Positions 1,370 through 64,000 of a DNA stretch of 64,000 nucleotides are shown here, piece after piece. A model generated the notes under the pieces. The model worked only from the letters and a program-made list of their open reading frames with translations. It did no database searches and had not been told where the DNA came from. The translations under genes and the position numbers were made by a program. The stretch is from a virus: positions 1 to 64,000 of IMG/VR virus record IMGVR_UViG_3300044617_001715, one strand, 5' to 3'. The first letter of the stretch is position 1. The number at the start of each line of letters is the position of its first letter.

Positions 1370-1598
1370 GTGAGCGAAGCTCACAACAAGTAAGTGGCTG
1401 TAGACGAGCTTGCGAGGCGGAAGTCCTACCGCTAATAGGGGGAGAGTGCCTGCCATAAGGGTAGCCAAGACAGGCAGAGAGGGTTATCTCTGCACAGGAA
1501 TCATCTCTAGAGGAGAGATTCGTAGCACCCTCTCTTGCGAAAGGGCATTACGAATCCCTCCTAGCACAAAGACTAGGAGGAATACGGATGTTTACATC
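1370..1598. ncRNA. Cluster of perfect hairpins, candidate structured RNA
   Basis: At least five exact stem-loops follow one another in a G+C-rich patch between two leftward genes. They are 1370-1375/1379-1384 (GTGAGC, GAA loop), 1474-1480/1487-1493 (GCAGAGA), 1503-1508/1514-1519 (ATCTCT), 1517-1524/1549-1556 (GATTCGTA) and 1557-1564/1573-1580 (CCTCCTAG). A short GATGT/ACATC palindrome lies at 1587-1598. The pair 1447-1452/1471-1476 (TGCCTG) competes for three bases with the second stem. No open frame explains the sequence. Which strand is transcribed is not determined, though the minus strand would link it to the flanking genes. It matches no RNA class I know. Confidence 0.5.
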
Positions 1599-4126
1599 TG
1601 GTTTCTAACCTTACAGAAGGATTCGAACAGCCATTTGTGACTGATCAAGTTGCCTTTCTCAAGACCCTTGTGTATCTCAAGGTTCTTGATTGGCTTTGCG
1701 TAGTCAGGATTAGCTTGACTAAACAGTTGATGGAGAGCAACAAAGCAAAGAATCTGATCAAAAGTTTCTTTGGAGTAGTTCTTAGGGAACTTTTTCCATA
1801 CATACTTTCTTTGTTCTAAGAGCAGAACTTTCTGCTTTCTTAGTACAAGATCAAACCCCATTGAAGAAAGTTTTGGCAGCTCTCCTTTAGGTGTCCAGCG
1901 AAACAGATTTACATCGTCATCGCTGTAACAGGAAGCCCACCTTGAGAAGGTAAGATTAATCCTGTCAACCATAGTAGAGTAAAAGCTTTCTCCGAAGTCT
2001 TTGCGGATCTTTGCAACAATCCTTTGTAGCTTAGGCAGCTTACGCTTCCAAGCTTCCAAACTTAACTCGTCAGCAACAGTATCAAACCAGTCTAGCTCTT
2101 TCTGAATCCGTTCAGAAGCGGCACGACATAGCTTGCTGTAGTCGCTATCAACTGTAAGGAATTTTACAGTCTTACGAGTTATCTTAATCAACTCCTTGAA
2201 CTCTTCGTCATAGCTACCCGCTACTCCGAACACACTCAAGGCTAGCTTTCTGTCTAGCGTAATTGTCTTGTTCAGAAGATCGTAGTGCATCATCTTGACA
2301 ATCTCTAGACACTTGTCTTCCAACCATTTGATAAGCACTGGATCGCAAGTCTGAGTTGCAAGATCAATACATTGCTCCATCGTTGGTAGAGGGCAGCGGT
2401 TAGCATAGCCTGTGTTCCAGCAGGCAATTATGTTTACTGCCCAACCAGGATTAGCAGAGACTTCCAACTTAGCCAAGAAGTGACTGAAGCCTCTAGATTC
2501 TTCTTTGGCCTTAACAGCCTTAGGAAGAGCAACAACTTCTTCATCAGAAGCAGATGCTTGAAGAGGCCTATCTGCTGGGAAGCTGCAAGGCTCAGACTTC
2601 CAATCGCCTTTCAACTGTGGAAGGTTATCTTCGAAAGCCTCAGCGATTGCATACTCATTCCTATCATTTGGTGTACGATAGATCAAAGCTACAATCCTTT
2701 CAGTAACCTTGTGCTTTCGGAAGATAAGAGCGAACTTATCATCCTGATCACAACCACCCCAATTGACAAGATTGTCTAGCCAATACTTGGTAGATACTAC
2801 AAACATATCGTGGCTCTTGAGATAGACAACCTTGCCGTCATCAATACCTTTGCTGTATAGCTGAGGAGCTACATAGCGTACTGCTTCTAGACAAACGATC
2901 TGAGAGAAGTACGAGCCGGGTATTTCTACCCAAATTTCTTGCTCGTCAACATCTTCAGTCGCCATCCTACGCAACCAGTCCTTGCAACTTCCTTGATACA
3001 AAGCTGGCAACTCTGCCTGCGAACCACCGCACTCGTTCCAAGTAATGGAGCGAAGTCTTTCACCCGTCGAAAAGGAATCCTTGATCCGCTTCTCTACCTT
3101 GAGCATCTGAAGCTCGTGCTTAGATTCTTCCGGTGTCTTGCCAGACTTGATGTCTACAATACCTTTCTTGAGCGTAGAATTAAACCATGACCAGACCCTA
3201 GTCTTAAGACCAAAGAACCAGCCAAAGTTTCTAAGACACTGCTTGTTGGTATAAGCAGAAGGCTTTGCTCCCTGCGGATCGTAACCGAAGAAAGCTACAT
3301 CACCTTTTACCACAACTTCATCTTTGATGTTCTTGCGATGAACATAGATGTTTGCTCCTTGTGGCAAAACTTTGTCTGTAACAATAGCCATAGCTTTGAT
3401 CTGACCAAGACCAGGTATCCAACCTCTAAAGTTTAGAGTCTTGATATCCAAGATAGAATCATCTAGCTTGATCTGAGGGTTTGCTAAAGCCCACTGATTT
3501 CTCAAGATGAGCATGAACTCTCTTGAGATTGTGATAGTTCCATCACAAGGAATATCCAAGTCAGACGATTCTGCAATGAACAACTTGACTTCACTTGCAG
3601 GCAGACAAGCTGCTACTAGGAAGTTTCTTTCAGTCTGTGATCCGCGTTTCTCTACCTTGCCACCAGTGAAGTGGAAGATGTTGAGATTCTTGGCGGTACA
3701 GTCGAAGTCTACTTTACATCCGTCTACCACAGTAAAGGTGTTAAGAACACCTTTGGCCCAAGCAGAAGCAAGGACTTTCTGTTTTTCTAGCAAGTTAAAG
3801 AGACTAATAACAATCTGAGGATTGCTGTTAGAGATAAAAACATCTTGCTTTTTCAGCAAAGCACTAGCTTCTACCAAGCTAGTAGCCTTAGCATCTGTGC
3901 AAAGACTGTACTGTTTCCATCTTTTACCGGCTAGACTCCACTTAACCAAGTAAGGAAATCCACCTTCGTTGGGTACACTTGCAGAGGTGTACAACAATTC
4001 AACTGCAATTTTCCAGCAGTCTTCGTACTTGTTGACTTTAGAACGAAGAAAGTTCTTCAAGGAGATGCAACGCAAGCCTCGAGACTTATCTTTATTTGCA
4101 GCCTTTGGAATCAAAAATAGATACAT
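1592..4126 (-). CDS. Large protein, possible divergent two-barrel RNA polymerase
   Basis: An 844-residue protein with an AGGAGA ribosome binding site eight bases before the ATG at 4126. Two segments recall the double-psi beta barrels of YonO/QDE-1-type RNA polymerases and in the same order. The first is DG-x-I-x-IS near D195, followed by a Gly-rich strand with a conserved-looking Lys (GQIKAM, K244). The second is a late barrel with an Asp cluster, NWGGCDQDDK (D460, D462, D463), followed by alternating hydrophobic strands. In the known families the metal-binding motif is DxDGD; here the fifth position is Lys (K464), so activity is uncertain. Known: YonO is a phage-encoded single-subunit RNA polymerase. 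Inferred: this could be an early or virion transcription enzyme. It may equally be an unrelated phage protein. Confidence 0.35.
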   Translation of the reverse strand: MYLFLIPKAANKDKSRGLRCISLKNFLRSKVNKYEDCWKIAVELLYTSASVPNEGGFPYLVKWSLAGKRWKQYSLCTDAKATSLVEASALLKKQDVFISNSNPQIVISLFNLLEKQKVLASAWAKGVLNTFTVVDGCKVDFDCTAKNLNIFHFTGGKVEKRGSQTERNFLVAACLPASEVKLFIAESSDLDIPCDGTITISREFMLILRNQWALANPQIKLDDSILDIKTLNFRGWIPGLGQIKAMAIVTDKVLPQGANIYVHRKNIKDEVVVKGDVAFFGYDPQGAKPSAYTNKQCLRNFGWFFGLKTRVWSWFNSTLKKGIVDIKSGKTPEESKHELQMLKVEKRIKDSFSTGERLRSITWNECGGSQAELPALYQGSCKDWLRRMATEDVDEQEIWVEIPGSYFSQIVCLEAVRYVAPQLYSKGIDDGKVVYLKSHDMFVVSTKYWLDNLVNWGGCDQDDKFALIFRKHKVTERIVALIYRTPNDRNEYAIAEAFEDNLPQLKGDWKSEPCSFPADRPLQASASDEEVVALPKAVKAKEESRGFSHFLAKLEVSANPGWAVNIIACWNTGYANRCPLPTMEQCIDLATQTCDPVLIKWLEDKCLEIVKMMHYDLLNKTITLDRKLALSVFGVAGSYDEEFKELIKITRKTVKFLTVDSDYSKLCRAASERIQKELDWFDTVADELSLEAWKRKLPKLQRIVAKIRKDFGESFYSTMVDRINLTFSRWASCYSDDDVNLFRWTPKGELPKLSSMGFDLVLRKQKVLLLEQRKYVWKKFPKNYSKETFDQILCFVALHQLFSQANPDYAKPIKNLEIHKGLEKGNLISHKWLFESFCKVRNQM

Positions 4127-5221: not shown

Positions 5222-7702
5222 CTAGCTTTTTGTGCCGGAGTTGTTTAACTCCATCCTTCTGATTTGTATTTGAGTTGCAATAGGAAGTTGATAATCTAAT
5301 AATTCGTACTCAGTTTCGCTCCGATATGAAGTTGCGGTTGTACCCTTTCCGCCTTCGGAATAATATTTTAATTGAGCTTGTTGAAACTTTTCAATAGCTT
5401 TAATACTTTGAGGAGATCCATACTCTCGCATAGTTTTTATTATATCTAAAGTAACAGTAGGCCCAGTATAAAACTCCGGAAGCAAATCTCCGTCTTGTCT
5501 AAATTTTTCTATCTGACTTACATCGATCATTTGTCTTTGTAACACAGGATCAACGACATGAAATCCTTTACTCATATTTTCGTAAATTTTATTTTCTGCT
5601 TTATTTAAAGCCTCATGAGTTTTTGCTTTAGCTATTTTTTCAGAATAGCTTGCTCTTTTTTCTTCAAACTCGAAAGCATAGTTAGAAGAATCTTTTACAT
5701 CGTCCTCATCAAATTGTCTTCGCAATTCATCAGCTTCTTTAGCTTCTAAAGCTTTCCTTCCTTTTATGTCGCCTTTAGCAACGGTTCTCCCTGCTTCTTT
5801 TGCATCTGTAATAAAAGCTACTCTACCTTTAACTTCTCTGTCTCTCGATAAACCTTCCTCTAACATTGATTCTGCAACAAACAAATTAAGTTTTTGTTTT
5901 TCAATTTCTTTTTGTTTAATCCTTGCCAAGCTACCACCTAAAGACTTTCGAGCTTTTGCGTAAATATCGATTTCTTTCCACACAAGCTTTCCATTCCTGT
6001 CGTAATCCATCATTAAACCCAACTTTGATCCTTTTCGCATTAATCGTTGTTCGCCAGTTAAGGGATCGACTATCCATTCTTTAGTTGTTCGTTTTGGCAT
6101 ATTTCTTAAGGTATCTTGCAATTTAGAAAACTTAACTCTATCGTGAGGACTCATACCTTGAATCAAACCCTTCAATATAGAATTTCTTCCCCCTAAACCA
6201 AAATCTTCCTCCCTGCGTTTTTTGCTGACCTCCGCTTCAACAGGATTTTTACCGCCTTTCTTATAAACTCTTTCGCCTCCAAAAGTATCTGAAGGTGCAA
6301 AACCCCCTCCTTCATTCATTCTTGGGGCTTTATATCTAATTACTTCTTTTTTCCTTTGCACCCCATCTCTTCCTACATAAAATTGTGTTAAGGTATAAAA
6401 AGGAGTATCTTCGCGAGAATCTTCTTCTGCTAAAACTTTTCTTTGATTTAAAGCATCAGCTATTAAGCCAGACTCTCTGGCGTATGTGTCAAAACTTTTA
6501 GCGTACATTTTAAACATAGTAGTAAAAGCTTTGTTTCCTTTTATCTGATCTTGAGATAAAGATTTACCAAATTTTGAAGTTACCGCAGTAGGGTTAGCTA
6601 AAATAGTAGCGTGAGTGTTTAAAATCCAATTCATTGCTTTGTTTTGTAAAGACCTCAACCTTAATGATGTTTTTGCTTGTGTATCAGATAAACGAAGATA
6701 TTTATCTCGCACAGCAGTAATTGCAGTTATTCTTTTTTCTTGTGCGATAATTAAAGCTTGTAAAGATACAGGAAAATTACTGTAAAAGTTTTTTATTTGA
6801 TCGTAAGTGTATGTTTTACCTGTAATTGCTTTGACTTGATTAATAATGTAAGTTTCTCTAGTTTTTAAAACTTGATCACCTTTTTGAATTTGGTTTTTCT
6901 TGTTTTCTATTTCTTGATAAAGTTTATTGTTTTCTCTTTTTGCTGTTGGATCACCTTCAAGCATGTAAGCATAAACCTCGTGCAAAGTTTTTCCAGAAAA
7001 CCCGCCTGAAGTTATTATCCAATTACCGGGATCATTATTTGCGATATTCAATAAACTCTGTTGATACTTTGTAGGTTTTGATTTTTCTTCTTTTTTTTCT
7101 TCTCCTATTTGTTTATAAACTTCTCTAATTCTATCTTTATCAAAACCTCCTTCAAAATAAGCATCATTAAATGCAACTGAGTTAAAATGAGCTGCAACAA
7201 TAGAAGCACTCTCATAACCAAAACTCTTATTAACGCTTTTTTCTATTTGATCATTATTAATTCCTCTTGCAGTTAAACCTTCTTTTACTCTAATTTTTAA
7301 TTCTTTTTCAAACTTTCTAATTACTAATGGGCCTACAGTTACACCAAAAGAAGCTGATGTAAGCTCATTTACTTTTATAATTTTCCGAATTTCGGGGTAT
7401 TCTTTAGAAAGCTCTGCTAATAATTTTGTTCGATAATCTGTATAGAATTTTGATTTAACCTTTTCTTTTTCTTTTTCTGAAAGGCCTTCTAAGGGTTTAT
7501 CTAATTTTGGTTTGTTTATTTTTACAGAATTAGTTATTCGATTTAAATTTTTTCTCAATTCCTCGTGATAAGAATGAACTAATTTAGGAATAAAATTTAA
7601 ATCAAGCGTTTTTTCCGGCTCATCTTCATCGTCATCAAACTTAAACCTTTCGGTTAATTCTTTATTTATCCCATCTATTATTTTTTTAAAGTGTGCAGCC
7701 AT
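5222..7702 (-). CDS. Large helical protein of unknown function (826 aa)
   Basis: An 826-residue protein, rich in Lys and Glu, predicted by eye to be mainly helical with long coiled-coil-like stretches and no membrane segment. It is divergent from the portal gene, only 60 bases away, in a position where many phages carry terminase or head genes. I see no Walker A motif or nuclease motif, so it is not a terminase. A Gly-rich stretch about residues 465-500 (EGGGFAPSDTFGGE) separates two helical halves. It could be an internal virion or ejected protein, but this is a guess from size and context. Codon use looks like that of its neighbours. Confidence 0.6.
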   Translation of the reverse strand: MAAHFKKIIDGINKELTERFKFDDDEDEPEKTLDLNFIPKLVHSYHEELRKNLNRITNSVKINKPKLDKPLEGLSEKEKEKVKSKFYTDYRTKLLAELSKEYPEIRKIIKVNELTSASFGVTVGPLVIRKFEKELKIRVKEGLTARGINNDQIEKSVNKSFGYESASIVAAHFNSVAFNDAYFEGGFDKDRIREVYKQIGEEKKEEKSKPTKYQQSLLNIANNDPGNWIITSGGFSGKTLHEVYAYMLEGDPTAKRENNKLYQEIENKKNQIQKGDQVLKTRETYIINQVKAITGKTYTYDQIKNFYSNFPVSLQALIIAQEKRITAITAVRDKYLRLSDTQAKTSLRLRSLQNKAMNWILNTHATILANPTAVTSKFGKSLSQDQIKGNKAFTTMFKMYAKSFDTYARESGLIADALNQRKVLAEEDSREDTPFYTLTQFYVGRDGVQRKKEVIRYKAPRMNEGGGFAPSDTFGGERVYKKGGKNPVEAEVSKKRREEDFGLGGRNSILKGLIQGMSPHDRVKFSKLQDTLRNMPKRTTKEWIVDPLTGEQRLMRKGSKLGLMMDYDRNGKLVWKEIDIYAKARKSLGGSLARIKQKEIEKQKLNLFVAESMLEEGLSRDREVKGRVAFITDAKEAGRTVAKGDIKGRKALEAKEADELRRQFDEDDVKDSSNYAFEFEEKRASYSEKIAKAKTHEALNKAENKIYENMSKGFHVVDPVLQRQMIDVSQIEKFRQDGDLLPEFYTGPTVTLDIIKTMREYGSPQSIKAIEKFQQAQLKYYSEGGKGTTATSYRSETEYELLDYQLPIATQIQIRRMELNNSGTKS

Positions 7703-35924: not shown

Positions 35925-37361
35925 ATGGCTAATACAATTCGCATTAAACGAAGATCAGCAGCAGGTGCTATAGGTTTACCGCCCGAACTTGCACCTGCCG
36001 AGCTGGCGTATAACGAAGCAGACAATACGTTGTATTATGGATTTGGCGATGTTGGTGGTATGAAATCTTCTTCTGTAATTGCTATTGCAGGTACTGGTGC
36101 GTTTATGACCACCGGAACCACTCAAACAATCTCTGCATCAAAAACCTTTTCTAATATTACTATCACAGGCGGTTCAATCTCTGGCATCACAGACCTTGCC
36201 GTGGCTGATGGTGGTACGGGAGCTTCTTCAGCTTATTCAGCTAGATCAAACCTTGGTGCTGCTGCTTCTGGTGCAAACAGTGATATTACTTCCATAACTG
36301 GGTTAACTACTGCGTTAAGCCTAGGTCAAGGTGGAACAGGTGCAACTACAGCTTCAGGAGCAAGATCAAATTTATCTGCTGCTTCTTCGGGTGCAAATAG
36401 TGACATAACTTCTATTACTGGACTAACCACAGCTTTAACTATTACCCAGGGTGGTACTGGCTCAAGTACAGCTTCTGGTGCACGATCAAACTTATCAGCA
36501 GCAGCAAGCGGAGCTAACTCTGACATTACTTCTATTACTGGTTTAACAACAGCACTTACAATAGGTCAAGGCGGAACAGGTGCAACGTCTGCATCTGCTG
36601 CTAGGTCTAATTTATCAGCAGCAGCAAGCGGAGCTAACTCTGACATAACATCTATTACCGGATTAACAACTGCTCTTACTGTGGCTCAAGGTGGAACAGG
36701 AGCAACAACAGCATCTGCAGCAAGAACAAACCTTCTTCCTTCTTACACGGGAAATGCGGGAAAAGTCATTGCTGTTAACAGTGCGGGAACTGATGTTGAG
36801 TATGTAGCTGCAAATACAGGAAGTGGGTCTGTAACAAGTGTTGCACTTACAGTACCTAATATTATGTCTGTAGCTAACTCCCCGATAACATCTTCTGGTA
36901 CACTTGCAGTAAGCTTAGCGACTCAATCGGCAAATGTTATTTTTGCTGGCCCCTCAACAGGATCTGCTGCTGTTCCAACCTTTAGGTCTTTAGTAGCTGC
37001 TGATATTCCATCACTTTCTTATCTATCAACATCTGGTGGAACAGTAAGTGGCTCGGTAACAATTACTGGCGACTTAACAATTTCTGGTACAACCACTACA
37101 GTTTCATCCAGCACATTACTTGTTGCAGATAAAAACATCGAGCTTGCAACAGGGTCTACTACTGATGCGGGAGCAAGTGGCGGGGGTCTAACCCTTCACG
37201 GTCTTACAGATAAGTTGTTTACTTGGGTATTAAGCACATCTTCTTGGACTAGTAGCGAAAATTTAGACCTTGCTTCTGGCAAAGTTTTAAAGATTAACGG
37301 CACAACTGTACTTTCTGCAACAGCACTTGATGGTGTCGATATTGACGGGGGCACATTTTAA
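35925..37361 (+). CDS. Tail fibre with 40-residue repeats (478 aa)
   Basis: A 478-residue fibre. It begins with the same KRRSAAGAIGLPPELAPAELAYNEADNTLYYG domain as the neighbouring fibres. It then contains four nearly identical 40-residue repeats (SGANSDITSITGLTTAL...GQGGTGATTASGARSNLS) preceded by a partial copy, a common elongated-shaft element of phage fibres. A Ser/Thr-rich strand region (TITGDLTISGTTTTVSSST) and a C-terminal IDGGTF follow. The last base of its stop is the first base of the next start. Confidence 0.75.
   Translation: MANTIRIKRRSAAGAIGLPPELAPAELAYNEADNTLYYGFGDVGGMKSSSVIAIAGTGAFMTTGTTQTISASKTFSNITITGGSISGITDLAVADGGTGASSAYSARSNLGAAASGANSDITSITGLTTALSLGQGGTGATTASGARSNLSAASSGANSDITSITGLTTALTITQGGTGSSTASGARSNLSAAASGANSDITSITGLTTALTIGQGGTGATSASAARSNLSAAASGANSDITSITGLTTALTVAQGGTGATTASAARTNLLPSYTGNAGKVIAVNSAGTDVEYVAANTGSGSVTSVALTVPNIMSVANSPITSSGTLAVSLATQSANVIFAGPSTGSAAVPTFRSLVAADIPSLSYLSTSGGTVSGSVTITGDLTISGTTTTVSSSTLLVADKNIELATGSTTDAGASGGGLTLHGLTDKLFTWVLSTSSWTSSENLDLASGKVLKINGTTVLSATALDGVDIDGGTF
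36258..36737 (+). repeat. Four 120-bp tandem repeats in a fibre gene
   Basis: Four units of 120 bp encode 40 residues each. The third and fourth share a stretch of over 30 identical bases around 36491-36525 and 36611-36645, pointing to recent duplication or conversion. A half unit precedes them. Confidence 0.75.
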
Positions 37362-41436: not shown

Positions 41437-41658
41437 ATGAGTATTAAGCATTTAACTGTTTTATCTTTTCCTTATGCTTTTAAAGGTAAACAAAAACCTA
41501 GTTACAACATAGATACTTCGTATCTTTATAAAGGATCTACGGTTCATCACAACATTATGGTTGAAGAAGATTCTGAATTAGGAAGCTTGTTTAAAGACCT
41601 TACAGAGTTAATTCAAGAATACATGGAAAAACAACCACAACCTCCTTCTGACAGTTGA
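41437..41658 (+). CDS. Small hypothetical protein (73 aa)
   Basis: This starts two bases after the previous stop. The 73-residue protein has a short basic N-terminal part, then an acidic C-terminal helix (EEDSELGSLFKDLTELIQEYMEKQ) and a Pro/Ser tail. No membrane segment or motif is visible. The close spacing suggests it is co-translated with the fibre accessory gene. The function is unknown. Confidence 0.5.
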   Translation: MSIKHLTVLSFPYAFKGKQKPSYNIDTSYLYKGSTVHHNIMVEEDSELGSLFKDLTELIQEYMEKQPQPPSDS

Positions 41659-41706: not shown

Positions 41707-42393
41707 ATGAAACTTTTTTCTTTTTTTGTTTTGTTATTAACCCCTTTAGTTGCATTCAGTGCTGACATAGATTTACCCAAAGAGGTAAAAGGTAAAGTTG
41801 GCGACTTTATTCAGATTAACTCTAAAGCAATAACTGATGTTGAATGGTACATTGTAGACGCAGGTATTCAATTTCTTCCTTTTGATTTACTTAAAGATAA
41901 AAAAACAGCAATTTTATTTACTTTAAACCCAGGCAAATACAGAGTATTAGCTTGGACAGCTAAAGACAGTAAGCCCTCCCCTGCATATTTATGTTTAGTA
42001 ACAATTGAACCAAACGATTTTATTCCTACACCAACACCTGTTCCTGTAGAACCTACAGTTCTAGAAAAAAGGCTCAAGCCTTTTTATATTAAAGACACCA
42101 GTCCAGATAAAAAAATACAACTTAATCAATTAAAGACTTTATTTGGAGAACTCCAAAAACTTTCTTTAGATGCAAACATAACAACTATTGGGGAATTGTT
42201 TAAAGCGGGTGCTGAAATATCCACAACACTTTTAGCAGATAAAATTCTTTCAGAATTAAGAGCAGAGTTAAACGCTTACATGGATGAAACTTTGCCACGA
42301 GTTTCAAGTCAAGCCTTAGATCAAAAAACAAAAGAATTATGCTTTTCCGTTTTTGGGGAAATAAAGAAAACTCTAGATAAGTTAGGAGAGTAA
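41707..42393 (+). CDS. Secreted protein with Ig-like N-terminal domain (228 aa)
   Basis: Residues 1-19 form a clear signal peptide (MKLFSFFVLLLTPLVAFSA) without a lipobox Cys. A small beta-sandwich follows (IDLPKEVKGKVGDFIQINS...PGKYRVLAWTAKDS), then a Pro-rich linker (PTPTPVPVEP) and a helical C-terminal domain. I recall similar YRVLAWTA proteins in planctomycetes. It lies at the head of the presumed lysis or host-envelope segment. An export role is shown by the signal; the target is not known. Confidence 0.55.
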   Translation: MKLFSFFVLLLTPLVAFSADIDLPKEVKGKVGDFIQINSKAITDVEWYIVDAGIQFLPFDLLKDKKTAILFTLNPGKYRVLAWTAKDSKPSPAYLCLVTIEPNDFIPTPTPVPVEPTVLEKRLKPFYIKDTSPDKKIQLNQLKTLFGELQKLSLDANITTIGELFKAGAEISTTLLADKILSELRAELNAYMDETLPRVSSQALDQKTKELCFSVFGEIKKTLDKLGE

Positions 42394-42394
42394 C

Positions 42395-43399
42395 TTGAAT
42401 CTTTATACTGAAGAAGAAATTGAAATGTTAAAAAGTGTTGGTGGCAAAATAGCTATTAACGGAAATGAATCTTATTGGAATTTTGGTTGGATTTCATCAG
42501 AAGAAAGATCAGAAGAGCAAACAAATCTTGACGCAACGTATCAAAGGGAAATGCCTTCGTTTAGTATTGAAGGAGAAGAAGAACCTAAAGACCGAGCATT
42601 CTTATGGGATTTTTCTTTAAAAGCAAACAACGGAAAACACTTTACAGTATTTCATCAACAAACAGGATCTTGCGTTGGTAACGGATTAGGGCAAGCTCTC
42701 TGGTATCTTTCAGCCGTAGAAGTCCATCGGTTAAAAGACCCTGAACAAGTTTTAATGCCTTTTTGGTTACTGCCTTACGGACGTTCGCGTATGTATGCTG
42801 GTATGGACAATCATGGAGAAGGTTCTTTTGGTTCTTCAGCAGCGTTAGCTATATCTAAAGATGGAGTCATACCATTTAATCTAGAAGGTTTACCTCAACC
42901 TACAAATCGAGATGGTTTAACTTGGGGAAAAGAAGCTGAGTTAGAATGGTCTCGTGGAAGCAAAATAGATGAAAAATGGTTAAATCTTAGTAGAAAACAT
43001 CTTGTTAAAACAACAGCAAGGATAAGAAGTGCAGACGACGCAATTGCTGCATTAAGAAATTACTATCCTTTGACATGTGCTTCTATGTTTGGTTTTACTC
43101 CGATGATTCCAGAAGTTTCTGGTACACCTCCTGTACGAGTTGTTCAACGAAGAAATGATTCATGGGGGCATCAAATGTGTTGTATTGGATGGATAAAGCA
43201 TCCTGAGCATGGTGATATATTTTACATTTTAAATAGCTGGGGAAAAGAACTTCACGGAGTTCCTGCAGGTTCATTTAACGAACCGCCAGGAGGATTTTGG
43301 ATTAAAAAGAAAGAAATGGAATTTATCTGTAGAGATGAAGTCTTTGCTTTTTCTCAGTTTCAAGGGTTTCCAGCTCAAACCATATCTTGGAATTTCTAA
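42395..43399 (+). CDS. Papain-like cysteine peptidase (C1 fold)
   Basis: The start is TTG at 42395 with AGGAG six bases upstream. The 334-residue protein has a papain-type triad: Cys in QQTGSCVGNG (C93, with preceding Gln for the oxyanion hole), His in WGHQMCCIGW (H259) and Asn in ILNSWG (N280). No signal peptide is visible. Such peptidases cleave proteins or peptide cross-bridges. Beside holin-like genes it may act in lysis or in modifying the host envelope, replacing a classical endolysin, which I do not see. It could also be a virion peptidase. Confidence 0.7.
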   Translation: MNLYTEEEIEMLKSVGGKIAINGNESYWNFGWISSEERSEEQTNLDATYQREMPSFSIEGEEEPKDRAFLWDFSLKANNGKHFTVFHQQTGSCVGNGLGQALWYLSAVEVHRLKDPEQVLMPFWLLPYGRSRMYAGMDNHGEGSFGSSAALAISKDGVIPFNLEGLPQPTNRDGLTWGKEAELEWSRGSKIDEKWLNLSRKHLVKTTARIRSADDAIAALRNYYPLTCASMFGFTPMIPEVSGTPPVRVVQRRNDSWGHQMCCIGWIKHPEHGDIFYILNSWGKELHGVPAGSFNEPPGGFWIKKKEMEFICRDEVFAFSQFQGFPAQTISWNF

Positions 43400-43410
43400 A
43401 GGACTACTTT

Positions 43411-43674
43411 ATGGACTGGGGTTTAGTAGCAGAAAAACTTGGATTACCCGGCTTTATTATAATCCTTTTACTTTTTGGATTATGGAAAAGCATTGCGTGG
43501 GCTGGATCAAATATTTTTATGCCTATTACAGAAAGGCATATTTGTTTTTTAGAAAAGCTTGAAAAGAATTTTGACCAAATAGATTCTGCGATACAAAAAA
43601 TTGCAGACTGCCAACAGCGTATGGTTACGAAAATAGTTTGCATTAATAACAAGGAGAATAACCCTAATGATTAA
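43411..43674 (+). CDS. One-TM coiled-coil protein A (holin-like)
   Basis: The start at 43411 has AAAGGA seven bases upstream. The 87-residue product has MDWGLVAEKLGLPGFIIILLLFGLW, one transmembrane helix, then NIFMPITERHICFLEKLEKNFDQID, a coiled coil. It is a clear paralogue of the gene at 44321. A small membrane protein beside a peptidase gene is typical for a holin or spanin partner, but the topology alone does not prove lysis. Confidence 0.55.
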   Translation: MDWGLVAEKLGLPGFIIILLLFGLWKSIAWAGSNIFMPITERHICFLEKLEKNFDQIDSAIQKIADCQQRMVTKIVCINNKENNPND

Positions 43675-44011
43675 TTATCCAAACACACTTCCTACAGATG
43701 CAGTTCTAATAATTGTCGACAAGCTACGAGGAAAAACATCAAACTGGTCTGATGTTATGCTTGCAGGCTGGAATTTATTAGGTTACGCATTATCTCAAAT
43801 ACCTTCAAACTCTCCTGACCGTATTTTAGAAGCGTACACGCAGCTAACAAATATTTCTATTAACACTGAAGAAGATGCTGCAACTTTTCTTGAAACTAAT
43901 GTTCTTGCAAATCAAGGATCAATTGAAGGTAAAGATCCAGCTAAAATGTCTGGTGTTGTTTTGTTAGTAATTATAAACATAATAACCAAGTTTATTATAA
44001 ATGTACTTTAG
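43667..44011 (+). CDS. Small protein with C-terminal membrane segment (114 aa)
   Basis: AAGGAGAAT precedes the ATG, which lies within the last codons of the previous gene. The 114-residue protein is soluble for about 95 residues and ends with a hydrophobic helix (SGVVLLVIINIITKFIINVL). It overlaps the following HNH gene by 11 bases. It could belong to the same membrane-acting set as its neighbours. No family is recognised. Confidence 0.5.
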   Translation: MINYPNTLPTDAVLIIVDKLRGKTSNWSDVMLAGWNLLGYALSQIPSNSPDRILEAYTQLTNISINTEEDAATFLETNVLANQGSIEGKDPAKMSGVVLLVIINIITKFIINVL

Positions 44012-44315
44012 TAAACCGAAGTTTAAAAGATCGGGTTTATGGACTAAAGTAAGGAACGATTTTTTAAAATTGCATCCCGTATGTGCGGTGTGCGGAATTA
44101 AAGATCGCCTTGAGATACATCATTGCATACCAGTGCATTTAGATAGAGATTTAGAACTTTGCCCAAATAATTTAATTACCCTTTGTGAAGGGCCTTGTAA
44201 TTGTCATTTTGTTTGGGGGCACTTGCTTAATTGGCGTTCTTATAATCCAACAGTAAGACAAGATGCACAAAATTTTTCAGAGAAAGTATTAAAAAGACCT
44301 TTTGGGCGAAGGTGA
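44001..44315 (+). CDS. HNH endonuclease
   Basis: A 104-residue HNH nuclease: CAVCG (C28, C31), LEIHHCIPVH with the catalytic His pair (H40/H41), NNLITLC (N57) and a closing CNCHFVWGH. These pack as a zinc-stabilised beta-beta-alpha metal site that cuts DNA. Phages use HNH proteins in packaging beside terminase or as mobile genes. Here it interrupts a pair of paralogous membrane-protein genes, far from any terminase, which favours a mobile or accessory gene, although HNH packaging cofactors are also known. Confidence 0.8.
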   Translation: MYFSKPKFKRSGLWTKVRNDFLKLHPVCAVCGIKDRLEIHHCIPVHLDRDLELCPNNLITLCEGPCNCHFVWGHLLNWRSYNPTVRQDAQNFSEKVLKRPFGRR

Positions 44316-44320
44316 TTATT

Positions 44321-44674
44321 ATGGAAGACTTTCAATCTTGGATAGTGATTGCAGAAAAAATTGGAATTCCAACTTTTATTTTAATGAGTTTTGCAATAGC
44401 TTCTTACAAAGTAATCATTTGGCTTGGAGAAAATATACTAATTCCAGTTACAACTAAACACATTGAATTTCTAGATAACATTGAAAAAAGTTTAAAAGCT
44501 GCGGACAAATTTAGTCAAGATTTAATGACGCTTCAAAAAAGCACATTCAAACAAATTGACAATATATCAGAGACTCAAGAAAATATTGAAAAATGTCTTA
44601 AAGCAATTACGCAGTGTGAAGAAAAGATTATTTCTTATGTTCAGGTCATTCAAGAAAGGATGACTAAGGAGTAG
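44321..44674 (+). CDS. One-TM coiled-coil protein B (holin-like)
   Basis: The start at 44321 has AAGGTG six bases upstream. The 117-residue product repeats the layout of the gene at 43411: WIVIAEKIGIPTFILMSFAIASYKVIIWLGENILIPVTTKHIEFLDNIEKSL, one transmembrane helix and a long coiled coil. The shared pattern is W-x4-AEK-x-G-x-P-x-F...W-x-G-x-NI-x-P-x-T-x-H-x-FL. Gene duplication followed by insertion of the 114-residue and HNH genes explains the arrangement. Confidence 0.55.
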   Translation: MEDFQSWIVIAEKIGIPTFILMSFAIASYKVIIWLGENILIPVTTKHIEFLDNIEKSLKAADKFSQDLMTLQKSTFKQIDNISETQENIEKCLKAITQCEEKIISYVQVIQERMTKE

Positions 44675-44706: not shown

Positions 44707-44925
44707 ATGATTTCAGTTTTAGTTTCGGTGGCGATGATGGCAGCAGAACCCGCAGATCTATTTAGACGCGGTGGCTCTTGCCCCTCAGGTTCTTGTTCTG
44801 CACCCGCTTCTGTAACCAAAGAAGTTACAAAAGAAAAGAAAGTAGAAGTATCTACTGGCCAATTGTGCGGAAAAACCAATTGCTGTTTTCATAAAGCAAA
44901 ACGCTTTAAGAAATCTTGCCGATAA
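44707..44925 (+). CDS. Small secreted Cys-rich protein (72 aa)
   Basis: AAGGAG precedes the ATG. A short hydrophobic N-terminus (MISVLVSVAMMAAEP) looks like a signal peptide. The mature part has CPSGSC, CGKTNCC and a final basic stretch with Cys (KRFKKSCR), so disulfides or metal binding are possible. Short Gly/Ser/Cys-rich exported proteins of this kind occur in planctomycetes, from memory. A strong terminator follows at 44941. The function is unknown. Confidence 0.5.
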   Translation: MISVLVSVAMMAAEPADLFRRGGSCPSGSCSAPASVTKEVTKEKKVEVSTGQLCGKTNCCFHKAKRFKKSCR

Positions 44926-51086: not shown

Positions 51087-52439
51087 TTATAGCTCCATGT
51101 CTATTGTTGTTCCCCAAGCTGGGGCAGTTCCTTGACCATACCGTAGAAACAATGTATCTACACCCGGATCAGCGGGGTATTGACTATAGCAATCAGTTAA
51201 GCACACAATTAAATCAGGTTGATAATCTAAAGCTTTTCCAATAACCTCAATGTGGCATGTGCCTCCGCCACCTTTAACTTTTGGTTCCCATAAGTCATCG
51301 GGTTCTAAAATTTCTTCTTTGTATACTTTTACATCGTGCCACAAAATTGCTGTGTTCTTTTTGTGTTGCGATCTAAAGTCGTTAACTTCTGCAGCAAAAG
51401 CAGACAACAAATTCGTATTAATACTTCCAGAAGTATCAATGAGAAAAACAATTGTTCCTAGTTCTTTTCCACCCAATGATGGAAGATGATACTTTGGATA
51501 AAATCGTTTGTCTGGTTTAGTCCAAACAGTTTCGCTTTTAGAAAACTTAAGAAGATATTCTTGAAGCAAATGCTTCCAATCAACTTTAGGTTTTTTTTGT
51601 GCTAATATTCTTGATAAAGATCCCGGTAAATCTCCCCGCATTTGTGCAGTTTGTTTTGCCATCTCTGTCATAAGTTCGGTATCAGATTCGGCTTCTCGTA
51701 ATTCTTCGGGTGTAGCTTTGCCTGGAGGCATAACTTCACCAAAAGTTTGAGGACATTTATACTTAATTGTTTCGTTAGGTGCATTTGTTTTTGTAGGAGT
51801 CTCTTCCGCGTCTTCTTCAAAATCGTAATCAGAAGTCGAATCAGAACCAAAGTCTGAATCAAAATCTGAGTCAGATTCTGAAGACGAATCAGAAGAATCA
51901 TTTTCTTCAAAACAAGAATCAGAGTCATCATCTAAATCTTTGTCAGGATTAGAACCATTACCATTAGATGGAATAGGATTGTCGTTAGTCTTTTCTTGAG
52001 GAATTCCATTCTTAGGGTCTTTTAGTAACTCATAATAAGCTTCTGCGGTAAGATCTTTTGGTAAAGTTTCAAACGGTTTTACACCCGGAACACATACTCC
52101 CTGAGGTAATAGAAAATTTTGCTCTAAGCAAATAGGATTGATAGCTAAATCCGCAGCAATATTCCAAAGCTCTGGGTTCCTTGCTCCCATTCGAGTGTGA
52201 TGAAAAAATAGTATATGCCAGATTTCGTGACAAAGAGTACCAATCAATTCTTCATCTGACAATTTTTCTACAAACTCTGAATTATAATAAATATTTTTCC
52301 CGTCTGTACTCATTGTTTTAGCAGAAGCTTTTTCTTCTATGTCTAATTGCATAACGCAGCTACTGAAAAACGGAGCTTCCGGTTTTGGACTTAACAATAA
52401 TTTTGTTAATGCCCTACTTATCTTTTGTTTTACATCCAT
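51087..52439 (-). CDS. Metallopeptidase-VWA fusion (DUF2201-like)
   Basis: A 450-residue protein combining two modules. The N-terminal half carries a zinc metallopeptidase motif, LCHEIWHILFFHH (H71, E72, H75), followed by NIAADLAIN. A low-complexity acidic Ser/Asp linker (about 165-215) leads to a C-terminal von Willebrand A domain with the MIDAS motif LIDTSGS (D335, S337, S339). This combination is known as DUF2201 and is usually encoded beside a MoxR-type ATPase. Together they are thought to assemble or remodel protein or metal complexes. Here the ATPase is two genes upstream. Confidence 0.75.
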   Translation of the reverse strand: MDVKQKISRALTKLLLSPKPEAPFFSSCVMQLDIEEKASAKTMSTDGKNIYYNSEFVEKLSDEELIGTLCHEIWHILFFHHTRMGARNPELWNIAADLAINPICLEQNFLLPQGVCVPGVKPFETLPKDLTAEAYYELLKDPKNGIPQEKTNDNPIPSNGNGSNPDKDLDDDSDSCFEENDSSDSSSESDSDFDSDFGSDSTSDYDFEEDAEETPTKTNAPNETIKYKCPQTFGEVMPPGKATPEELREAESDTELMTEMAKQTAQMRGDLPGSLSRILAQKKPKVDWKHLLQEYLLKFSKSETVWTKPDKRFYPKYHLPSLGGKELGTIVFLIDTSGSINTNLLSAFAAEVNDFRSQHKKNTAILWHDVKVYKEEILEPDDLWEPKVKGGGGTCHIEVIGKALDYQPDLIVCLTDCYSQYPADPGVDTLFLRYGQGTAPAWGTTIDMEL

Positions 52440-52447
52440 GATTACTC

Positions 52448-53305
52448 CTAATTGTTTTGAGTCTGAAGTTCTTTATGTGTAGACTGCGTGTCCAACATAA
52501 GAATTGCACTGGTGATTGTGCATTTTGTTTTGTTAATAAGGTCTTTAGTAGCCATTAAAGTCATATCTAAAATGTTTTCGTAATGGCTTGCTTTGTTTTC
52601 AATATGATCTAAAGCTTTTAATTTACTTTGCAAAGCATGATTCTTTAAATCGCCCGAATAGACTTCAGTAGATATTGTGTTAATCTTCTGAGCAAGCTCG
52701 TCCAAAATACCTTCAAGTACCACTTGTTTTTCTTTTTCACCCAATTCGTGGTTTACATGATAGATTCGAACAGGACTTTGCTTTTCAAGTTTTTCTGAAA
52801 GAATCCTAAAGATAGTCATAGAGCTTTCGGCTAACCAATAGATACCACCACAAGAACGCAAACTTGTACCGTACAATCCATTTGGAACAGACATGATGAT
52901 ATTTTTAAGAGTTCTAGAAACATCATTAGGTGTGAAGTATTTATTTAGTCCTTCATACATGTTGTTTACAAAACTTAATTCTTTTTCATTTACATTTGTC
53001 ATTATGACTTTATCTAAAGAAGCACTGATAAAATAAGAACAAATGTATTGTCGTTCATTTTTCTCAAGGCCTTTTTGTTCTCTAAGGATCTCGTAACCTT
53101 GAGCATTTAATTGACGAATTAAATATCCATCTTTTTCTGAATAAACAGTCTTAAGAGAATCGTACAACACGGTAAGATTAGTTCTCCCTTTAGGGGTGAA
53201 CTCTTTTAATCCACATTCAATTAGCAAATCTGTTAAAACTTTCTTATCAACATTTGCTGAATCCCAAAAAATCAATGAACCTTTTCCTGTGGTGGTAGTT
53301 ATCAT
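52448..53305 (-). CDS. Protein between MoxR and VWA genes (285 aa)
   Basis: A 285-residue alpha/beta protein with an N-terminal IFWDSANVDKKVLTDLLIECGL segment and later helices rich in Lys and Glu. I recall similar proteins beside MoxR/VWA pairs in phages and planctomycetes (possibly the DUF6744 type), but this is uncertain. Spacing of 12 bases from the ATPase and 8 bases from the VWA gene fixes the three as one operon. It may be the adaptor or target of the ATPase. Confidence 0.5.
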   Translation of the reverse strand: MITTTTGKGSLIFWDSANVDKKVLTDLLIECGLKEFTPKGRTNLTVLYDSLKTVYSEKDGYLIRQLNAQGYEILREQKGLEKNERQYICSYFISASLDKVIMTNVNEKELSFVNNMYEGLNKYFTPNDVSRTLKNIIMSVPNGLYGTSLRSCGGIYWLAESSMTIFRILSEKLEKQSPVRIYHVNHELGEKEKQVVLEGILDELAQKINTISTEVYSGDLKNHALQSKLKALDHIENKASHYENILDMTLMATKDLINKTKCTITSAILMLDTQSTHKELQTQNN

Positions 53306-53317
53306 TTTAATTACTCC

Positions 53318-54340
53318 TTAAATAGTACATACACTTTTGACAAACGAAGAATTAGCTTGTAACCAATTGACAAATTCTGGAACTTTAAGCAGAGCAATTT
53401 TTTGATATTCTTTATCAGAAGTCTGATAGCTTCTAATAGATGCTACACTCATTTCGTTGCAACCTTCTTGAGCATAACGAAGAGCGATTTTGGTTGCAGG
53501 TATTGCGTATTGTTTGCAATCTTTATTAACTCGACTAGAAAATCCAGCCATAAGTGCGTAACGAGCATCTTGTTTTTTAGGCAAAACACAAGTGTCAGGG
53601 TTAGCCATGATGTCGTTAAAGTTAATTTCATTAAGCAATCGATGAAACGCTAAGAACGCTGGAGCAATTTCTTTACCTACTAAGCCCGATACAATAGAAG
53701 GCAAAACAGACAAAGGTGCATTTTTATACGAACTAAGCATTTCCCAACTTCGTGGAGAAGCAAAACACTCTTGCTCTTTAGACGGATCAAAAGTTGAAAG
53801 ATGCTGCGGAGCAAAATTAATATAACCTAAAACGGAATCCCATGTTCCTTTAGAGGTTGCGTATTCAATCCAATCTTCGTAATGACTTTCTGCTGTGATA
53901 TGAACCACCCTGTTTTTCATAGCACTAATCATTCTGTTAGCTCCGGTGCGATCTGTAGTTCGATTACCGGCAAGAATTATTCGGGTATCTTCTGGAAGTT
54001 TATGATCGCCAAACTGATAGTCATAAACAGCTTGCAAAGATGCACCTTGAATTTCTGGACGAGCTTGTGAAAATTCATCAAACAAAATTACAGTTTTATC
54101 TGTCGTAGGAAAAAAGCTTGGTTTTAACCAACGCAAAAATCCTCCAACATCTACGGGTAGTCCGCGAAGATCAACAGGATCTAAAGTGGCTAAACGAACA
54201 TCAATCAATGTGTAGCCAACCTTTTCTACAACTTGTGAAATAATTTTTGATTTGCCGATGCCAGGAGGCCCCCAAATCATTAACGGTACTTTGGTCTTTA
54301 GTGATTCTTCAATTGCAATTTCTAAAAGCTTTGGACGCAT
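53318..54340 (-). CDS. MoxR-type AAA+ ATPase
   Basis: A 340-residue AAA+ ATPase. Walker A is WGPPGIGKS (K30), Walker B ILFDEFSQA (D88, E89), then sensor-1 region ILAGNRTTD and an arginine-finger region further on. The general layout is that of the MoxR branch, which remodels or inserts metals into partner complexes together with VWA proteins such as the one encoded two genes downstream. In a phage the partner may be viral or host. It begins two bases after the upstream gene. Confidence 0.8.
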   Translation of the reverse strand: MRPKLLEIAIEESLKTKVPLMIWGPPGIGKSKIISQVVEKVGYTLIDVRLATLDPVDLRGLPVDVGGFLRWLKPSFFPTTDKTVILFDEFSQARPEIQGASLQAVYDYQFGDHKLPEDTRIILAGNRTTDRTGANRMISAMKNRVVHITAESHYEDWIEYATSKGTWDSVLGYINFAPQHLSTFDPSKEQECFASPRSWEMLSSYKNAPLSVLPSIVSGLVGKEIAPAFLAFHRLLNEINFNDIMANPDTCVLPKKQDARYALMAGFSSRVNKDCKQYAIPATKIALRYAQEGCNEMSVASIRSYQTSDKEYQKIALLKVPEFVNWLQANSSFVKSVCTI

Positions 54341-63454: not shown

Positions 63455-64000
63455 ATGGATCTACTACCCTTGAATGGAATCTGTTACGCAGGGGAAACTA
63501 AAGCTATAACATCTCGCGGTGCTATAGCTTTAGAGCTATTGACTGGAAAAAACAAACTTGAATTCTTAACACCTTGGGGTTTAAAGCCGGGCAAAGTAAT
63601 AGCTAAAGGGCCACAACGATGCAAGACTCTTGTTTTAAGAAGAGCTGGTTGTCATTCACAATACAATCCATTTAGACCCGTCATTCGTGCTGCTCCTGTT
63701 TCTCACGACTTTAATGAATCAGATGAAATACAAACTTCTTGCAATTTATACAAAGAAGATTTTGATCACGGTTTTGTTCACGGAATGACTTTTCGCTATG
63801 GGATTCAATACGAACCTCATAACGAACATGCAAACATTCGAAAGTTTAGTTTTGGTTATAAGGTAAAGCAAAAACATATTCTTACACTTCTTCCTTTTCT
63901 TAATGCTAGACAAGGAAGAGAATGCGTTATTGATAGTCACTCTTCAACTGAAGTTTTTTTTAGAACAAGCTTTGATGCAAAACATTTTCCAAATGAATTT
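63455..64000 (+). CDS. Partial gene beginning with an intein (Hint) domain
   Basis: An open frame of 182 residues runs to the window edge. An in-frame stop lies directly before the ATG, and there is no ribosome binding site. After only nine residues (MDLLPLNGI) comes CYAGETKAITSRG, which fits intein block A (C-x-A-G-D/E-T...T..G). Strand patterns LEFLTPWGLKPGKVIAKG and TLVLRR follow, then a degenerate block B (VIRAAPVSHDF, Ala in place of the usual Thr). DHGFVHGMTFRYG about residue 107 may be a LAGLIDADG-like endonuclease motif. The host protein is unknown because its C-terminal part lies beyond the window. Confidence 0.6.
   Translation, partial: MDLLPLNGICYAGETKAITSRGAIALELLTGKNKLEFLTPWGLKPGKVIAKGPQRCKTLVLRRAGCHSQYNPFRPVIRAAPVSHDFNESDEIQTSCNLYKEDFDHGFVHGMTFRYGIQYEPHNEHANIRKFSFGYKVKQKHILTLLPFLNARQGRECVIDSHSSTEVFFRTSFDAKHFPNEF

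Follow-up and report, generated by a model that had tools for sequence, protein, structure and literature searches.

The window, i.e., the whole stretch of 64,000 nucleotides of viral DNA analyzed here (bases 1-64000 of a virus record of 67,326 bases), encodes on its plus strand what is, judged from its predicted structure, a papain-fold C1A cysteine peptidase with predicted proteolytic activity. This enzyme probably serves a planctomycete phage as its lysis effector, replacing the usual endolysin; from sequence comparisons, gene neighborhoods and structural models the probability of this reading is put at about 0.58. Late in infection the soluble peptidase would accumulate in the cytoplasm, and meanwhile a partner consisting of a signal peptide, an Ig-like domain and a helical bundle would be exported. 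Small transmembrane (TM) proteins encoded nearby would act as holins and release the peptidase, which would then join its partner and cleave peptide bonds in the envelope, causing the cell to burst. In relatives with an N-terminal TM segment the enzyme would span the membrane directly, perhaps with no need for a holin. If this is true, a phylum once thought to be protein-walled is opened by a protease, which would suggest that envelope proteins bear load, or that the enzyme belongs to a new family of peptidoglycan peptidases; it would also offer a marker of lysis in many uncultured viruses and a means to open planctomycete cells.

Active site, fold and known relatives

The peptidase ORF (42395-43399, plus strand) comprises 334 codons and starts with TTG one base past the stop codon of the upstream gene; a Shine-Dalgarno-like GGAGAG (42385-42390, plus strand) precedes both this start and that stop codon. 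The encoded xylellain-like protein of 334 aa contains Q88, C93, H259 and N280, which do not vary across 26 aligned sequences that include the window protein and extend down to 25% identity to it. In a wider set of 67 rows (thinned at 90% identity) the Gln and Cys occur in every row because the rows were selected for them, the His was found in 64 rows by pattern and in the remaining three by eye, and six of the 67, all of them divergent members (L134, L135, L138, L139, L142 and L143), have Gln in place of the active-site Asn. In L250 the peptidase (5814-6977) is broken across two reading frames, the cassette being otherwise typical.

Searched alone, the window peptidase remained without a hit in Pfam or PHROG at E ≤ 1 and had no credible match among PDB sequences, and with Pfam and PHROG no known peptidoglycan-hydrolase catalytic domain was found in it. 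Among the 26 aligned sequences, 17 match Pfam Peptidase_C1 (PF00112) at E ≤ 0.1 (best 3e-11), and the family profile finds xylellain (3ois, E 3e-8) together with plant and animal papains. The AlphaFold2 model of the window peptidase (mean pLDDT 88.9) was assigned a papain fold by Foldseek (1e-12), and xylellain is the best structural match (VIA Z 23.5, rmsd 3.1, 240 aligned residues, 21% identical). The original prediction had named a papain-type enzyme with C93, H259 and N280; the residues are as it had stated, and the fold was confirmed by profile, AlphaFold2 model and structure comparison. A chance ORF was ruled out by the conserved active site and the cassette.

The presence of C1A peptidases in phages is already known, and the acquisition of xylellain-type C1A genes by Myoviridae and Siphoviridae (Caudoviricetes) is described in passages of one study (PMC10380794). 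The window peptidase shares the papain fold and the Q-C-H-N site with xylellain and further short C1A peptidases of bacteria (PF00112); unlike these, it is encoded in a cassette that also holds genes for small TM proteins and for an exported Ig/helical partner. Papain-superfamily domains also occur in phage endolysins, for which CHAP, NlpC/P60, amidases and N5 of mycobacteriophage Lysin A are mentioned in two sources (PMC10318531, PMC3314691); these are likewise cysteine hydrolases of the wider superfamily that are used for phage lysis. In contrast to these domains, the window peptidase has a C1A fold and is without a Pfam wall-binding domain. Structural matches were found to C1-like phage proteins in BFVD, among them 'Peptidoglycan binding-like' (E 2.6e-9) and 'N acetylmuramidase (Fragment)' (6.8e-8), these wall-related names being deposited names only. 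The titles of the best literature matches and the passages obtained, a scope that mostly leaves out subscription papers and preprints, contain no description of the cassette.

Composition of the cassette

All genes of the window cassette lie on the plus strand. The exported Ig/helical partner (41707-42393), which has a signal-peptide-like N-terminus, is encoded directly upstream of the peptidase and is followed, after the peptidase, by a holin-like protein with one predicted TM segment (residues 18-36; gene 43387-43674, its start overlapping the 3' end of the peptidase gene), a recurrent 114-aa protein with a predicted C-terminal TM segment (residues 96-114; 43667-44011), a recurrent HNH endonuclease (44001-44315) and a second holin-like one-TM protein (residues 11-29; 44312-44674) that is 33% identical to the first. 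The peptidase thus adjoins small one-TM proteins, and it lies downstream of tail-fibre-like genes. Two small ORFs flank the cassette (41437-41658 and 44707-44925), and look-alikes are found in the same places in L004 (9024-9248 and 12314-12523).

The collection comprises 214 sequences (213 loci and the window), of which 211 contain the peptidase, 133 of these being distinct. Relative to the 133 distinct peptidases, the Ig protein is encoded directly upstream in 108 cases, fused in one and oddly placed in three, and was not found in 21. Using iterated models, the Ig protein was detected within 4.5 kb of 116 of the 133, a holin-like protein of 79, the HNH endonuclease of 70 and the 114-aa protein of 54; for the 86 loci flanked by 3 kb or more on either side the respective numbers are 77, 51, 45 and 38. 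The gene order within the cassette varies among loci, i.e., the cassette is shuffled but cohesive. Cohesion was also seen from the side of the neighbors: the peptidase is present in 78 of 80 loci retrieved via the Ig protein, all 30 loci retrieved via the holin-like protein alone carry both Ig protein and peptidase (12 contigs new to the collection account for 13 of them), and all ten loci retrieved via the 114-aa protein are on peptidase-bearing contigs (eight known; L222 and L223 new). No usual endolysin was found in place of the papain in these 30 holin-like loci and ten loci of the 114-aa protein. In L071 and L106 the Ig protein occurs without a papain in the stretch at hand; the sequence of L106 ends there.

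The exported partner

The model of the partner (mean pLDDT 88.0, pTM 0.52) consists of an Ig-like sandwich (residues 26-101), a Pro-rich linker and a helical bundle (118-227). In a whole-protein Foldseek search it matched mainly Ig-like domains, the best being that of the lambda tail tube protein (3.5e-4); other rows include cystinosin (rmsd about 25 over about 240 columns) and a pair of putative alpha-galactosidases (about 88 columns). Its invariant columns are V45, D51, G53, G76, R79, P90, P102, P116 and F216. By a hydropathy rule, a signal-peptide-like protein is encoded just upstream in 56 of the 67 thinned peptidase rows compared with 17 of 245 background anchors. A similar rule finds such an upstream protein at 90 of the 112 loci where the Ig protein was matched and at 14 of the 21 where it was not, one of these 14 (L122) resembling the holin-like protein itself. 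When the window partner was considered as a spanin, inspection by eye showed a signal peptide without a lipobox cysteine, and neither a lipobox nor a TM tether was found; some distant partners resemble lipoproteins.

In L222 the helical part of the partner seems to be kept and the Ig part differs (by eye). The locus L095 contains a natural fusion that places the Ig protein with its signal peptide ahead of the peptidase domain, and in which about 30 of the usual N-terminal peptidase residues are missing (by eye), so that the fusion is not obviously a mere frame error. In this fusion the helical part is located between the Ig domain and the peptidase, a pro-domain-like position, and our guess is that it acts as a pro-domain. 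A wider generalization would make this a split papain lysis system of phages across the whole phylum Planctomycetota, working without any wall hydrolase, in which the signal-peptide Ig/helical protein would be export partner in trans and pro-domain, the holin-like protein would free the peptidase, and the fusion and N-TM versions would be one-chain forms of the same system; in this full extent it is doubtful.

Holin-like proteins

In the holin-like family one TM segment was called in 65 of 81 members and none in 16, and in the 114-aa family a TM segment was called in 31 of 54; signal peptides and TM segments were called throughout by simple hydropathy rules and not by a trained predictor. The homology of 11 aligned holin-like members to known holins is only marginal: one of them, the second holin-like protein of the window, matches PHROG 1625 (E 0.006), and two match PHROG 18771 (function unassigned) at E 4e-4. 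The holin-like genes originally described in this segment are real as short one-TM proteins by hydropathy, and their homology to a known holin family is marginal.

Membrane-anchored relatives

Phage lysis enzymes include signal-anchor (SAR) endolysins and holin-dependent endolysins. The peptidase family, too, is found in N-TM and soluble forms, with the soluble ones usually next to a small TM protein. Unlike SAR endolysins, the window enzyme has no called TM segment, nor was a signal peptide called in it by the hydropathy rules; an N-terminal TM segment is present in 18 distinct relatives, 16 of which are encoded on bacterial contigs. On the tree the TM state changes six times, at least three of these changes being forced by well supported branches. 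The gain of a membrane or export signal on more than one occasion supports, at the level of sequence, that the peptidase works outside the cytoplasm, at least in the N-TM relatives. Just 3' of the N-TM peptidases of L112, L114, L121, L225 and L227 an exported thioredoxin-like protein is encoded (by eye; with CPYC in L227).

For loci with 2.5 kb on both sides, a holin-like gene accompanies none of 13 N-TM peptidases compared with 55 of 79 soluble ones, numbers that omit 41 of the 133 distinct loci (39 without flanks, and L130 and L051 without the motif). After thinning at 90% identity the contrast is 0/10 versus 32/54 (p 0.00085), at 70% it is 0/8 versus 23/43 (p 0.0057) and at 50% it is 0/2 versus 5/13 (p 0.52); the independent tree pairs number three to four, too few for a test. 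If any small TM protein is counted irrespective of HMMs, it is found with 5 of 10 N-TM and 46 of 54 soluble peptidases (p 0.023; p about 0.08 at two stricter thresholds). As 16 of the 18 N-TM forms are on bacterial contigs, the contrast is confounded by source, and split by source it reads 0/12 versus 2/9 on bacterial contigs (p 0.17) and 0/1 versus 53/70 on viral contigs (p 0.25). A mutual exclusion, as between signal-anchored and holin-dependent enzymes, was therefore given no independent standing in view of the source confound, the thinning and the few pairs.

Distribution and likely hosts

Scans of viral contigs yielded 6, 12 and 28 loci, and a scan with eight GC-richer relatives yielded 250 coding stretches in viral contigs, 80 of which were retrieved. 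Among 50,697 annotated phage records no tblastn match was found to the window protein or to one GC-richer relative, among 72,556 plasmids none to the window protein, and bacterial genomes scanned with close relatives of the window protein gave none. The bacterial scan with the GC-richer set returned 33 loci, of which 28 are titled Planctomycetota (eight 'Gemmataceae'), titles with 'Candidatus Kuenenia' and Singulisphaera being counted among them as planctomycetes; the remaining five are titled Bacteroidales, Sphingomonadaceae, Proteobacteria (two contigs of one MAG) and 'bacterium'. Judged by their titles, all bacterial loci are from MAGs except for that of Limnoglobus roseus, a member of the Gemmataceae. 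Matches at E ≤ 1e-10 were obtained in 5 of 294 genomes from the phylum of Limnoglobus, Limnoglobus included. The peptidase loci of L112, L114 and L116 are located downstream of phage-tail-like genes (by eye). The peptidase-bearing viruses thus seem to infect planctomycete bacteria, and we infer a planctomycete host for the window's own AT-richer branch as well.

Two different peptidase loci per record were observed in the 206- and 221-kb records (L020/L028 and L022/L024), and in L020 and L023, the latter near-identical to L024, another exported-looking protein is encoded upstream. On the Limnoglobus roseus chromosome (L121, 9246-11298) the Ig protein, an N-TM peptidase and a small exported protein are encoded amid housekeeping-like genes, with no obvious phage genes across 20 kb (by eye), which suggests a remnant or a domesticated copy.

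Such a retained pair of Ig protein and N-TM peptidase would suit a function other than lysis, i.e., in lysogeny, takeover or non-lytic release, where the peptidase would mediate surface exclusion, cleave host proteins or loosen the envelope for chronic exit. The exported thioredoxin-like neighbors (by eye) would also be compatible with this, and, according to passages of one report, a planctomycete phage of 21.9 kb leaves its host without lysis by chronic release (PMC10945688). However, the peptidase follows the tail genes in prophages as well as in viruses (by eye), which is the usual place of lysis genes, and it is also carried by large records of 107-221 kb, so that a function of this kind is considered unlikely. 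Among the literature matches listed, no account of tailed phages lysing planctomycetes was found.

The host wall and the search for usual endolysins

The original prediction, that a protease could take over the lysis role where an endolysin is expected, had been reasoned from host envelopes with little peptidoglycan. This reason was not upheld, as Gemmata obscuriglobus and P. limnophilus possess lysozyme-sensitive peptidoglycan sacculi according to one study (PMC4432640). The proposed substitution itself keeps its support, since the peptidase occupies the slot of lysis genes in a cassette found throughout the family and none of the seven endolysin families searched was found above cut-off. As the likely hosts have sacculi, a protease has either to get through the peptidoglycan or to cleave the peptides in it. 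The host peptidoglycan would stay intact under the action of a pure protease, which counts against lysis by the peptidase. Either the stem peptides would be cleaved, or tethers made of protein would be more important than assumed, or host autolysins would finish the process. With regard to the substrate, our guess is that proteins holding the envelope together are slightly likelier than peptidoglycan stem peptides, the two being close to evenly placed.

That the segment lacks a recognizable muramidase, amidase or transglycosylase was found to apply to the entire record, where no peptidoglycan hydrolase is present among the 25 families listed of 33 with matches in its 69 ORFs (Pfam E ≤ 0.01) and where six families searched individually are nil. 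The search for an endolysin outside the window likewise gave none of the seven families above cut-off in the 67,326-base record or in 49 related ones. Amidase_2 was found in 0 of 49 related records, a set that does not contain the window's own record, and Phage_lysozyme, SLT, M15_3, CHAP and NlpC/P60 were each found in 0 of 50 records (the set for NlpC/P60 including the Limnoglobus genome and leaving out G049), and M23 was matched in one of 50, below the cut-off. The virus records in this search are peptidase-bearing and at least 30 kb in length, include near-duplicates and possible fragments, and omit L005, L025 and L075 (records of at least 30 kb). Seven families were covered across the records, with GH19, GH25, glucosaminidase, Amidase_3 and M15_4 outside this set. 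As controls served 12 phages of other hosts, which we picked among 40 listed out of 141 whose capsids are distantly related and which were run with Phage_lysozyme, Amidase_2 and M15_3: Phage_lysozyme was found in seven, M15_3 in three and at least one family in nine of the 12, and Amidase_2, found in 0 of 12, is uninformative as a control. In G009 a Pfam scan (62 ORFs, 12 families, E ≤ 0.001) showed no hydrolase, and the scan of G019 and G040 covered 101 ORFs with 25 families listed of 50; in both scans weak matches were possibly missed.

With none of the known hydrolase families searched found above cut-off in the records, the actual wall hydrolase might be hidden in the helical domain of the Ig protein or in the 114-aa protein, and the peptidase would then be an accessory that, e.g., clears envelope proteins. 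Both proteins are recurrent neighbors without an assigned activity, and the helical part is seemingly retained in L222 despite the differing Ig part. But the invariant columns of the Ig protein are unlike an enzyme site, its Foldseek rows from the whole-protein search are mainly Ig-like domains, and the 114-aa protein is near only 54 of 133 peptidases, which makes a hidden hydrolase quite unlikely compared with the peptidase itself as lysis effector.

Neighboring structural genes and further features of the records

It is very unlikely that the peptidase is instead a virion component, either part of the tail or ejected, that breaches the envelope when the phage enters. Its position adjoining tail-fibre-like genes and the further structural-looking genes after the cassette in L009-L014 (by eye) could point to such a role, but the exported partner upstream, the N-TM versions and the holin-like neighbors are ill-suited to it, and the peptidase is encoded by a stand-alone ORF and does not form part of a tail protein. 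A role as prohead protease is unnecessary, since a separate Peptidase_S78 match (E 6e-5) is present in the same record.

Several other features of the records were observed. A tail-fibre-like protein of the window (35925-37361) contains repeated 'GANSDITSITGLTTAL' units. A DUF2201 metallopeptidase/VWA protein is encoded at 51090-54340 of the window near an AAA protein, and G009 likewise shows a DUF2201 and a MoxR-like match. In L002 a protein encoded at 1455-3389 (record position 63455 onward) has stretches that, judged by eye, resemble a Hint/intein domain.
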